Part shown: piece after piece, positions 2,907 to 6,017 of the stretch
Layout: each line of letters opens with the position of its first letter
Position numbering within the stretch: the first letter of the stretch is position 1
Assembly: GCA_017432345.1 (NCBI GenBank)
Contig: JAFRJI010000022.1
Coordinates: 1 to 56,179, forward strand
Length of the DNA: 56,179 nt
Direction: 5' to 3'
From: Bacillota bacterium
GTDB lineage: Bacteria; Bacillota; Clostridia; Peptostreptococcales; Anaerovoracaceae
The notes under the pieces: generated by a model
The model's database searches: none
The model's input: the letters and a program-made list of their open reading frames with translations, nothing else
What the model was told of the DNA's origin: nothing
Position numbers and translations under genes: made by a program

Positions 2907-3311
2907 TTACTTGCGGTCCATAAGATCGCTTAACTTCTTACTATAAAAAAAGTCCCGGACGATCTCATCGAATTCTCTCCACATCGGCAGAGTCGGGCAG
3001 ATCGCCTCCCGCGGACATTTTTTTGTGCTGTCGGCAAGACACGCCACGCTGGAGAGGGTGCCTTCCATGAGTTCCAGCACTTCTCCCACCGAATAGTCTT
3101 CCGGTTTCCTGCAAAGGCTATAGCCGCCGCCCTTGCCGCTGACGCCGGTGACGAGCCCCGCATGGACCAGTTCTTTTACGATGATCTCCAGATATTTTTT
3201 GGAGATATCCTGCCGTTCGGCGATGCTCTTAAGAGGAATGTTGCCGCTTTCCTGGTGTTCAGCCAGATCGATCATGACGCGCAGTGCGTAGCGCCCCTTG
3301 GTTGAGATCAT
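2907..3311 (-). CDS. Rrf2-family transcriptional regulator
   Basis: The 134-residue protein has the Rrf2 winged helix at the N terminus (MISTKGRYALRVMIDLAEH), the wing motif GVSGKGGGYSL near residue 75, and three C-terminal cysteines spaced C-x8-C-x5-C, as in IscR-type members that sense Fe-S clusters or redox. It could equally be a CymR-like cysteine regulator. The start at 3311 has AAGGCGG upstream; the longer frame to 3374 has no ribosome site. It is divergent from the metY-cysK operon, which makes cysteine metabolism the obvious target. Confidence 0.88.
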   Translation of the reverse strand: MISTKGRYALRVMIDLAEHQESGNIPLKSIAERQDISKKYLEIIVKELVHAGLVTGVSGKGGGYSLCRKPEDYSVGEVLELMEGTLSSVACLADSTKKCPREAICPTLPMWREFDEIVRDFFYSKKLSDLMDRK

Positions 3312-3344
3312 GTCATAAACCGCCTTTCGTTCGTTGTTTGACCT

Positions 3345-3374
3345 ATTATACCGCAAGGTAAATAGGGAAAGCAA
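3345..3374 (-). promoter_or_regulatory. promoter of the Rrf2 gene
   Basis: On the minus strand TTGCTT (3374-3369) and a perfect TATAAT (3350-3345) are separated by 18 bp. An ACCT...AGGT inverted pair (3341-3359) overlaps the -10 box and could be an autoregulatory operator. Confidence 0.6.
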
Positions 3375-3390
3375 AAAAATTTTTAATTAA

Positions 3391-3423
3391 CCTATTGACA
3401 TAGTAGGCGAATAGTTGTATCAT
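3391..3423 (+). promoter_or_regulatory. promoter and probable Rrf2 operator of the cysteine operon
   Basis: TTGACA (3395-3400) and TATCAT (3418-3423) are spaced by exactly 17 bp. The -35 box is embedded in an imperfect inverted repeat, CCTATT...AGTAGG (3391-3407), so a bound dimer would block polymerase. The CCTATT half-site is also found in the divergent Rrf2 promoter. Confidence 0.7.
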
Positions 3424-3459
3424 ACGGACATCAAATGAAAAAGAAAGGAGACGCAGGTA

Positions 3460-3567
3460 ATGAAAAAAGCGAATGATTCCAAGATCACCAATGTGATGTG
3501 TTGTCTGATGCGTAACTCCCGGGCATGTGAAATGGCGGGGGTGTGTGGTTGCCTGCGCACGCCTTGA
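3460..3567 (+). CDS. Cys-rich leader peptide of the cysteine operon
   Basis: A 35-codon frame begins with ATG at 3460 and is preceded by AAAGGAG at a workable distance. It encodes five cysteines, a tandem Cys pair at residues 14-15 and single Cys at 23, 29 and 31. It lies between the promoter and an intrinsic terminator upstream of metY-cysK. This is the layout of an amino-acid attenuation leader, in which ribosome stalling at scarce Cys codons would control terminator folding. Cys-rich leader peptides ahead of cysteine genes are known in mycobacteria; I know of no described clostridial example. Expression is inferred. Confidence 0.72.
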   Translation: MKKANDSKITNVMCCLMRNSRACEMAGVCGCLRTP

Positions 3568-3616
3568 TGTGACAACAAAGCAGTAATAGTTGCTCATTTG
3601 CCATTTGCCCGGGAGT
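3515..3616 (+). promoter_or_regulatory. antiterminator pairing of the attenuator
   Basis: ACTCCCGGGCA at 3515-3525, inside the leader peptide codons, is the exact reverse complement of 3606-3616, the left arm of the terminator. Pairing continues past a short bulge (AAATGGC with GCCATTT). Formation of this helix excludes the terminator hairpin. A ribosome paused at Cys codons 14-15 (3499-3504) would leave the 3515 arm just free. Confidence 0.7.
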
Positions 3617-3644
3617 CAAATCACCGACCCCGGGCAATTTATTT
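3605..3644 (+). terminator. attenuator terminator before metY
   Basis: TTGCCCGGG (3605-3613) pairs with CCCGGGCAA (3629-3637), followed by TTTATTT. It sits 79 nt before the metY start and downstream of the Cys-rich leader frame, so it is a regulated terminator rather than an end-of-operon one. Confidence 0.8.
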
Positions 3645-3722
3645 ACAGAAAACGGAATCATATCACATATGGAATCATAGTACGATCAGAATAACCATCA
3701 AAAAAGAAAAGGAGAACAAACA

Positions 3723-5006
3723 ATGAGCGAATATAAATTTGAAACATTACAGTTACACGTAGGACAGGAACAGGCGGATCCGGCAACCGACGCGAGAGCA
3801 GTGCCGATCTATCAGACGACGGCATATGTCTTTCATAACAGCCAGCACGCAGCCGACCGGTTTGGTCTGGCGGATGCGGGAAACATTTACGGCAGACTGA
3901 CCAACTCCACACAGGGCGTTTTGGAAGAACGCATCGCAGCTCTCGAAGGCGGCAGCGCGGCACTGGCATTGGCCTCCGGGGCAGCGGCGATCTCATACAC
4001 GATCCAGGCGCTAGCCGCAAACGGCGGTCACATCGTCGCACAGAAGACGATCTATGGCGGGACCTTCAACCTGCTGGAGCACACGCTTCCGCAGTATGGA
4101 ATCAAGACGAGCTTCGTCGATGCCCATGACCTTGCGGAAGTAGAGGGCGCGATCGAAGAAAACACCCGGGCGATCTTCCTGGAGACACTGGGGAATCCAA
4201 ACAGCGATATTCCGGACATCGACGCGATTGCGGAGATCGCCCACAAGCACGGGCTGCCGCTGGTCATCGACAACACGTTCGGAACGCCGTATCTGATTCG
4301 TCCGATCGAACACGGAGCCGACATCGTGGTGCATTCCGCTACAAAATTCATCGGCGGGCACGGAACGACGTTGGGCGGCATCATCGTTGAAGCAGGCAAA
4401 TTCGATTGGAGCGCCAGCGGGAAATTCCCAAACATCGCCGCGCCGAATCCGAGCTACCATGGCGTATCATTCTACGACGCAGTCGGCCCGGCAGCTTTTG
4501 TGACATATATCAGAGCGATCCTCCTTAGAGATACAGGCGCCACATTGTCGCCGTTCAGCGCATTCCTGCTTTTGCAGGGAATCGAAACACTGTCGCTGAG
4601 ATTGGAACGCCACGCCGAAAACACAAAAAAGGTCATAGAATATCTGAAGCAGCATCCTCAGGTTGCGCACATCAACCATCCATCGCTTCCTGAGCACCCG
4701 GATCATGATCTGTATGAAAAGTATTTCCCAAACGGCGGGGCATCGATCTTCACCTTTGATATCAAAGGCGGAAGAGAAGAAGCGTGGAAGTTCATCGATG
4801 GACTCCAGATCTTCTCACTGCTGGCCAACGTGGCCGATGTGAAGAGCCTGGTGATCCATCCGGCTTCCACCACACACTCGCAGCTGACGGAGGAAGAGCT
4901 GCTGGATCAGGGAATCAAACAAAGCACCATCCGGCTTTCCATCGGAACCGAGCACATCGACGACATCCTCGCCGACCTCGAAAAGGGGTTTGAGGCAGCC
5001 AAATAG
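3723..5006 (+). CDS. metY: O-acetylhomoserine sulfhydrylase (MetY type)
   Basis: The 427-residue PLP enzyme of the Cys/Met metabolism family matches the usual length of O-acetylhomoserine aminocarboxypropyltransferase. Visible motifs are the N-terminal ETLQLHVGQ, the phosphate loop around ALASGAAAISY, VIDNTFGTPY with the PLP-binding Asp, and the Schiff-base lysine in HSATKFIGGHGTT. It makes homocysteine from O-acetylhomoserine and sulfide in the cytosol; close relatives can also use O-acetylserine. AAAGGAG precedes the ATG. It forms an operon with cysK behind the Cys-leader attenuator and the Rrf2 promoter, so sulfide assimilation appears to be regulated at two levels. Confidence 0.93.
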   Translation: MSEYKFETLQLHVGQEQADPATDARAVPIYQTTAYVFHNSQHAADRFGLADAGNIYGRLTNSTQGVLEERIAALEGGSAALALASGAAAISYTIQALAANGGHIVAQKTIYGGTFNLLEHTLPQYGIKTSFVDAHDLAEVEGAIEENTRAIFLETLGNPNSDIPDIDAIAEIAHKHGLPLVIDNTFGTPYLIRPIEHGADIVVHSATKFIGGHGTTLGGIIVEAGKFDWSASGKFPNIAAPNPSYHGVSFYDAVGPAAFVTYIRAILLRDTGATLSPFSAFLLLQGIETLSLRLERHAENTKKVIEYLKQHPQVAHINHPSLPEHPDHDLYEKYFPNGGASIFTFDIKGGREEAWKFIDGLQIFSLLANVADVKSLVIHPASTTHSQLTEEELLDQGIKQSTIRLSIGTEHIDDILADLEKGFEAAK

Positions 5007-5081: not shown

Positions 5082-6017
5082 ATGGCAAATATCTATAAAG
5101 GAACATTGGAATTGATCGGCAACACGCCGTTAGTAGAAGTGATCAACATCGAAAAGGATCTGGGACTGGAAGCGACCGTCTTGGTCAAGCTGGAGTACTT
5201 CAACCCAGCCGGAAGCGTGAAGGACAGAATCGCGAAATCCATGATCGAGGACGCGGAAGCAAAGGGCCTGCTCAAAGAAAACTCCGTCATCATCGAGCCG
5301 ACATCCGGCAACACCGGCATCGGCCTGGCGGCCATCGCGGCGGCCAAGGGCTACCGGGCGATCCTGACGATGCCGGAGACCATGAGCGTAGAACGTAGAA
5401 ACATCCTGAAGGCGTACGGCGCCGAGATCGTACTCACCGACGGAGCAAAAGGCATGAAGGGCGCCATCGCGAAGGCGGAAGAACTGGCAGAGGAGATCGA
5501 CGGCGGATTCATCCCGGGACAGTTCGTGAACCCGGCGAACCCGCAGATCCACTACGACACCACGGGTCCGGAGATCTGGGCGGATACGGACGGCAAAGTC
5601 GACATCTTCATCTCCGGCGTCGGGACCGGCGGAACCGTGACCGGTACCGGCGAATACCTGAAAGAGCAAAACCCTCAGGTCAAAGTCATCGCAGTCGAAC
5701 CGGCCGATTCACCAGTGCTTTCCGAAGGTAAAGCCGGTTCGCATAAGATTCAGGGAATCGGCGCGGGCTTCGTTCCGGACGTTTTGAACACCGCTGTGTA
5801 CGATGAAGTCTTTAAATCGTCTAACGACGATGCGTTTGCGGCCGCCAAATACCTGGCCAAGACCGAAGGGATTTCAGTGGGAATCTCCTCCGGCGCCGCG
5901 CTGTACGCGGCCATCGAGCAGGCAAAGGATCCGGCCAACAAGGGCAAGACCATCGTCGCGCTCTTGCCGGACAGCGGCGACCGGTATTACTCAACACCGC
6001 TGTTCACCGAAGGATAA
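5082..6017 (+). CDS. cysK: cysteine synthase A
   Basis: The 311-residue protein is a normal-length O-acetylserine sulfhydrylase. PLP lysine is in NPAGSVKDR (about residue 46), the substrate loop is [10 protein letters not shown], the phosphate-binding loop [12 protein letters not shown], and the C-terminal serine loop ISSGAAL. It converts O-acetylserine and sulfide to cysteine. AGGAGG lies just before the ATG. Gap to metY is 75 nt without a terminator; a strong terminator follows the gene. Confidence 0.95.

Follow-up and report, generated by a model that had tools for sequence, protein, structure and literature searches.

The locus upstream of metY and cysK in the window, i.e., the whole 56,179-nucleotide stretch of Bacillota DNA analysed here, raises the question of whether a ribosome translating a short Cys-rich leader decides if RNA polymerase reaches these sulfur genes. 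In Clostridia, the control of amino-acid genes is generally attributed to T-boxes and repressors. The original prediction, cysteine attenuation by translation, has turned out to be largely right, and the reading preferred here is ribosome-mediated cysteine attenuation with a Shine-Dalgarno (SD) lock, operating under an Rrf2-type promoter, which we consider highly probable. Comparison of homologous sequences demonstrates the ORF, the conserved Cys codons and their spacing, a covarying antiterminator and SD lock, and the sulfur-gene targets. The features of the locus are collected in Table 1.

Table 1 Features of the metY-cysK leader locus in the window.
Feature	Coordinates	Strand	Description
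Divergent Rrf2-family regulator gene	2907..3374	-	TIGR00738, 123.5 bits, above cut-off
Likely Rrf2 operator CCTATTGACATAGTAGG	3391..3407	+	Inverted repeat CCTA/TAGG over the -35 box; presumed role
Putative sigma-70-type promoter	3395..3423	+	TTGACA 3395-3400, 17-nt spacer, TATCAT 3418-3423
Leader Shine-Dalgarno AAAGGAG (3444-3450) and extension	3444..3457	+	CGCAGG 3452-3457 complementary to CCTGCG 3552-3557
ORF of leader peptide	3460..3567	+	35 codons, stop TGA 3565-3567; frame control in homologues
Sensor codons Cys14-Cys15 (TGT TGT)	3499..3504	+	Sole well-conserved Cys codons
11-nt spacer, last Cys codon to CTCCCGGGCA arm	3505..3515	+	CTG (elsewhere CGA), ATG, five variable bases
Antiterminator left arm (arm 2)	3515..3536	+	3515-3525, bulge, 3531-3536
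Hairpin within antiterminator loop	3539..3563	+	3' strand (~3552-3563) common to SD lock
Antiterminator right arm (arm 3)	3600..3616	+	Overlaps left arm of terminator
Intrinsic terminator	3605..3644	+	Stem 3605-3613/3629-3637, T tract TTTATTT 3638-3644
metY, O-acetylhomoserine/O-acetylserine sulfhydrylase	3723..5006	+	TIGR01326, 624 bits, cut-off 495
cysK, cysteine synthase A	5082..6017	+	TIGR01139, 449 bits, cut-off 351

The leader locus and its homologues

The predicted 35-codon frame with five Cys codons, including a tandem pair, was borne out; it encodes MKKANDSKITNVMCCLMRNSRACEMAGVCGCLRTP, with Cys at codons 14, 15, 23, 29, and 31. The 11-nt complement proposed between frame and terminator is exact, as 3515-3525 (ACTCCCGGGCA) is the reverse complement of 3606-3616 (TGCCCGGGAGT), and pairing does continue past a 5-nt bulge, between 3531-3536 (AATGGC) and 3600-3605 (GCCATT). 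A terminator also follows the frame as anticipated. While leader, arms, and terminator of the supposedly complete attenuator were thus confirmed, the SD lock had been overlooked. Taken by itself, the window makes a moderate case: of 5000 dinucleotide-shuffled ORFs, 14 contained an 11-nt complement to the region of the terminator arm, 804 had at least five Cys codons, and 763 had a Cys-Cys pair, so that homologues have to decide. Once these are compared, the arrangement of leader and arms is, by sequence, far beyond chance.

Searches for known RNA and peptide families were largely empty. At gathering score, Rfam returned one tRNA only for the whole window; at E ≤10, five matches were obtained on 3400-3722, all under gathering scores, and twelve leader loci (the window's own included) gave no match. 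Neither the T-box (RF00230) nor the SAM (S-box) riboswitch had an Rfam match at the locus, and NCBIfam gave no family for the leader peptide at E ≤0.1. Four T-box matches, two of them above cut-off, occur elsewhere in the genome (contigs C7, C22, C35, and C50), so T-box and Cys attenuator probably coexist.

BLAST of 3400-3722 against 197 relatives found 11 genomes: apart from the window's own, nine had true homologues and one had a match (L013) rejected as chance. The covariance model R1, built from the ten leaders of the window and its BLAST homologues, located copies in 53 of 349 genomes of the window's family, the window's genome counted, spread over 11 of 92 genera. A second model, R2, found the leader in 26 of 393 genomes of the order, all from the window's family, in 10 of 291 genomes of the class, nine of which belong to four other families and which have as many as three copies each, and in two of 299 genomes of the phylum; all three counts take in the window's own genome. 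Both models include the Cys columns, and the conservation of Cys is therefore partly ascertained. With the codon-blind model R3, 255 class genomes yielded 12 strong matches, and a further 41 came from 36 genomes picked for having copies; all had been found previously, and no strong additional copy emerged from either set. Two R1 family matches and several in the R3 and same-genus searches merely repeat the same leaders as shadows on the opposite strand.

In addition, a pattern scan of named genomes recovered at least 118 stretches, with at least 80 loci listed. Among the 81 pattern matches listed, 53 combined a leader ORF with a complementary arm 3; of the remaining 28, many lie in GC-rich genomes and look like chance, but L175, L207, and L209 appear to be real leaders overlooked by this rule. 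L187 satisfied the rule and was discarded as chance. The matches listed include Lachnospiraceae, Ruminococcaceae, Saccharofermentans, and Mogibacterium assemblies, as well as Anaerovibrio lipolyticus DSM 3074 (Negativicutes), a culture-collection strain carrying the leader and suited to testing the prediction. Models and pattern together supplied at least 108 distinct usable leaders (68 and 40, respectively) from Clostridia and at least one Negativicutes strain, after leaving out L136, L137, and L139 (diverged, no matching arm 3 by the rule), L200 and the two matches of L198 on account of N bases, and nine exact duplicates.

Mutually exclusive structures and a proposed Shine-Dalgarno lock

Antiterminator and intrinsic terminator are mutually exclusive, sharing arm sequence, and the antiterminator pairs covary. 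In a MAFFT alignment made without structure (60 of 71 eligible representatives), 84.6% of cells were paired in the antiterminator and inner hairpin, compared with 26-55% when the structure was slid and 82.4% when shuffled, and 0/500 shuffles were as high; the margin over the shuffles is narrow because the core is highly conserved. Both-side changes affected 14 of 22 antiterminator pairs in this alignment, a number reached by 1/500 shuffles, and a core G-C to A-U exchange was seen in five of the 60 leaders. A model-fitted alignment of 39 leaders had 89.3% of cells paired (82.1% shuffled) and both-side changes in 18 of 25 pairs. Within the core, CCCGGACA covaries with TGTCCGGG, and a C-G pair becomes U-A in L073. 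Two other pairings were rejected: a local arm-2 hairpin, noticed by eye as a classic anti-antiterminator, was inconsistent in the alignments, and an extra RNAalifold helix between UUGUCUG and the right arm of the terminator had two of its six pairs broken in the two CGA-type leaders.

The hairpin past arm 2 has a 3' strand complementary to the leader SD (often AAAGGAGGCG plus an extension). For the 99 of 108 leaders entering the test, matched duplexes averaged -12.1 kcal/mol versus -9.7 for mismatched ones, and for 77 cluster representatives -11.7 versus -9.6, with 0/20000 permutations as good in either set; kinship can inflate these permutation tests, an effect that clustering lessens and does not abolish. 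In 76 of 84 representatives, the SD lock reached a z value of -7.1, while six control region pairs stayed between -0.4 and -1.6. As the lock crosses the helix of arm 2 and arm 3, lock and antiterminator should exclude each other, and untranslated window RNA is predicted to terminate.

Partition-function folding at equilibrium, with assumed ribosome footprints, computed such a structural switch for the window. The naked RNA gave the terminator 0.89 and the SD lock 0.76, while a ribosome stalled at Cys together with a second one on the SD gave the antiterminator 0.95. A lone stalled ribosome with the SD free did not release the lock (antiterminator 0.00), and a ribosome at the stop codon left the terminator at 0.89. 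The proposal that Cys14-Cys15 are placed so that a stalled ribosome exposes the arm holds in folding with the assumed footprint. Across the 108 leaders, the antiterminator was favoured in 56% as naked RNA, in 73% with a stalled ribosome, and in 86% with the SD occupied too; a ribosome placed at the stop codon lowered this share to 49%, and one placed on arm 2 to 0%. In silico, stalling leads to the antiterminator, and completed translation leads to the terminator in the window and in about half of the 108 leaders. Thus, being off by default is not universal. For about half of the leaders, the folding at the stop codon counts against the simplest attenuation reading; there, termination after complete translation would depend on timing, with the ribosome still on arm 2 as polymerase makes the terminator, or on following ribosomes that cover this arm.

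To see where the ribosome has to halt, the leading ribosome was moved along 38 of 73 eligible representatives while the SD was kept occupied, numbering the R/L codon after the Cys pair as 0. The antiterminator was at 0.58 with the A site at -9, at 0.74-0.77 from -3 to -1, at 0.37 at 0, at 0.09 at +1, and at 0.57-0.60 from +12 to +14. The drop from A site 0 onwards suggests that the conserved Cys positions are the last ones at which arm 2 stays free. For the window, again with the SD occupied, all positions from -9 to -1 were permissive (0.83-0.99), so that Cys would mark the edge of a zone, no unique spot.

From these predictions, we infer stalling in vivo, a response to cysteine, and the following order and timing of events. 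The attenuator would read the supply of cysteinyl-tRNA and act in cis. By default, the 3' strand of the hairpin past arm 2 would pair with the leader SD, which would block more leader translation and exclude the antiterminator, letting the terminator form and keeping metY-cysK off. With ample cysteine, a ribosome that has started would cover arm 2, and the terminator would form as well. When cysteinyl-tRNA is scarce, the ribosome would stall once a Cys codon enters its A site and, given the usual footprint, its leading edge would end one or two bases before arm 2; a following ribosome would occupy the SD, arm 2 would pair with arm 3, and RNA polymerase would enter metY-cysK. Runaway transcription in B. 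subtilis makes tight coupling doubtful in some Firmicutes, according to the available part of PMC7858274, and this is a point against a coupled attenuation model. The SD lock could illustrate how leader-peptide attenuation might work in loosely coupled cells, where no ribosome follows close behind the polymerase.

It could be argued that the cysteine attenuator has no functional lock, the complementarity being a by-product and the switch consisting of whether arm 2 is covered when polymerase reaches the terminator. The share of naked leaders already favouring the antiterminator speaks for this, and the SD resembles the hairpin 5' strand, so one strand would suit both. Yet the matched SD and strand of the 77 representatives surpass all permutations whereas the six control pairs do not, both sides change together in divergent leaders, and the window's switch requires SD occupancy in folding, which makes an attenuator without a lock unlikely, if still a serious alternative.

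Probable sensor codons and the leader peptide

If the ribosome is the sensor, frame and codons should matter. In 100/108 leaders, an ORF starting behind an SD continues across the Cys codons, compared with 1/108 and 2/108 in the other two frames. Among the 68 model-found leaders, Cys occupies -1 in 60 and -2 in 60, both positions in 53, and either one in 67. Some leaders have Cys runs of three or four, and TGT and TGC both occur. Good conservation is confined to the tandem Cys pair of the Cys-rich leader and does not extend to its three later Cys codons, which had contributed to this description. The last Cys lies 13 or 14 codons past the start in 36/68 model-found leaders, and the arm keeps its 11-nt spacer distance from the last Cys codon in 68/71 model-found copies. 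The alignment of homologues suggested at the outset hence agrees with the original prediction, Cys codons being retained and arms covarying; hairpins lacking Cys codons, which had been named as evidence to the contrary, occurred in 0 of 14 upstream regions read at leaderless metY loci of the same genus. In one leader (L127, G655), CCRMR is followed by the stop codon right at arm 2, with arms and terminator kept, which suggests that the peptide past the Cys codons is dispensable, unless this copy is decaying.

A mixed sensor of cysteine and methionine, with Met codons at -3, -4, and sometimes -1 serving as control codons too, has some appeal. Met is found at -3 in 39/68 and at -4 in 35/68 model-found leaders; among cluster representatives, the figures are 31/47 and 20/47 versus 2-7/47 at -5, -2, and -1. 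Folding predicts that a stall at -3 or -4 would likewise permit the antiterminator. Seven leaders have Met at -1, six of them before metY and one, L073 (G358), before metF and metH-type genes. The latter reads MGMRM without Cys at -1 and -2 and is possibly a methionine version of the leader. However, it is the only leader without Cys at both sites, metY lies downstream of most leaders regardless of their codons, and cysK alone is also found downstream of CC and CCC forms. A mixed sensor thus appears improbable as a general account, and cysteine attenuation with an SD lock remains the preferred reading. It may tentatively be extended, with somewhat less than even confidence, to a widespread Clostridia/Negativicutes family in which one strand chooses between the leader SD and the antiterminator hairpin, Cys/Met swaps tune the leader to methionine operons, and the transcript is off and closed to translation unless ribosomes both occupy the SD and stall at Cys codons.

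The peptide itself might instead act by nascent-chain arrest, in which an xCC[RL]MxxSRA peptide would sense cysteine or another metabolite and stall in the exit tunnel, as opposed to a pause caused by scarce cysteinyl-tRNA. Downstream of the Cys pair, R/L, M, S, R, and A are conserved, Met is frequent upstream of it as described above, and Clostridia have arrest peptides such as CliM (the accessible portion of PMC13183943). Against this, the top residue at each of positions -5 to -9 occurs in at most 22/68 model-found leaders. Moreover, S-R-A tracks the RNA arm, as SRA becomes SRT or SRV where the core arm covaries, so the RNA and not the peptide seems to be constrained there. All 68 model-found leaders have CGA (40) or CTG (28) as codon 0 and never a synonym, which points to a constraint on the nucleotides, and codon +1 is ATG in 64/68 (codons 0 and +1 are 3505-3510 in the window). 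Nascent-chain arrest is accordingly a very improbable explanation. A fixed pairing partner for the spacer was considered and dropped, its pairing being diffuse with no clear partner.

Separately, 28/108 leaders end in Arg-Cys-stop, mostly CGATGTTGA (e.g., L126, L129, L131, and L135). A ribosome paused at such an end, well beyond arm 2, would be predicted to free arm 2 again.

Promoter control, target genes, and related attenuators

Attenuation had been proposed in place of the usual Firmicutes control. While the attenuator is supported, an Rrf2-type regulator and a promoter box are present as well, so attenuation adds to protein control and does not replace it. The nearest named models for the regulator are IscR (104 bits) and CymR (97 bits), both under equivalog cut-offs. 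An Rrf2-type homologue is divergent in 14/54 fetched loci, and a box similar to CCTATTGACATAGTAGG was read in promoters of homologous loci. Among 29 metY loci of the same genus, the leader is present in nine, one locus is truncated at an end, and 19 had no match. Of these leaderless loci, 14 were read, 11 showing a similar promoter box and two having cysK directly upstream. The box being kept where the leader is absent, the attenuator looks like an optional module atop promoter control. That the Rrf2 regulator is the sole control and the leader a remnant might fit these boxed, leaderless loci, but it is the least credible explanation, as arms, SD lock, frame, and Cys codons co-evolve across many genera and the leader is found ahead of several different sulfur operons.

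One of the 14 loci read, L323 (G036), has a different Met/Cys-rich leader and terminator ahead of metY. Its leader ORF (MKKVHATATEMMEMCIWNCHMYM..., read by eye) is unrelated to that of the window, and the terminator also differs; L323 is perhaps an independently evolved sulfur attenuator.

The pattern-found loci were picked irrespective of neighbouring genes. In 49 of 51 listed, the leader immediately precedes sulfur or amino-acid transport genes (MetY 29, MetQ/NlpA 13, CysK 4, amino-acid ABC 3), the other two having too little DNA in one case and cysK further along in the other. For model-found loci of the family, metY or cysK starts at most 1.8 kb downstream in 48/54. Further targets are cystathionine enzymes with cysK and metN, MetQ/NlpA, an amino-acid transporter, a sulfonate-type transporter, and metF, while the weak copy L139 is upstream of a short-chain dehydrogenase.

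Attenuators with control codons, mutually exclusive antiterminator and terminator, and the ribosome as sensor are familiar from the enterobacterial trp and his operons, and a related SD pairing exists for trpL. The present leader would resemble trp and his in all three respects; it differs in having arm 2 within the leader ORF and in a predicted default state in which the leader SD takes part. A literature search, with most subscription papers outside its scope, found no description of this Cys-leader family or of the SD lock, and the family is apparently new, though of a known kind, ribosome-mediated attenuation.

The closest likeness is the uORFC-8-2 motif, a cysS leader of Rhodobacterales with tandem Cys codons usually at 14-15 and an intrinsic terminator, for which ribosome-mediated attenuation was proposed (available text of PMC8632094). 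Both combine a short uORF and tandem Cys codons with a subsequent intrinsic terminator. In the same text, however, uORFC-8-2 belongs to Alphaproteobacteria, occurs exclusively before cysS, and has its Cys codons inside the first stem, whereas the Bacillota leader precedes metY, cysK, metQ, and other targets, has its arm after an 11-nt spacer, and carries an SD lock. Since its targets and taxa are not the cysS and Rhodobacterales of uORFC-8-2, it is set apart by description. In Mycobacterium and relatives, cys operon leaders also place a Cys-codon leader peptide before cysteine genes; as far as the accessible text of PMC1262725 goes, their Cys codons are near the stop and no conserved terminator hairpin is present, and the title of Canestrari 2020 calls these short ORFs leaderless. 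Finally, Firmicutes His leaders share leader peptide, antiterminator, and terminator in Gram-positives, but have histidine codons and his genes, and an SD lock is not mentioned in the available portions of PMC2965389 and PMC9413887.

If true, the preferred reading would provide an RNA-encoded cysteine sensor for several sulfur operons of gut and rumen Clostridia. The covariance models and the pattern could annotate many sulfur operons of uncultured genomes.

Elsewhere in the window, overlapping ORF translations at 366-752 share one repeated segment (HHLSLLSDFQAYSGGRF...), which suggests tandem DNA repeats.
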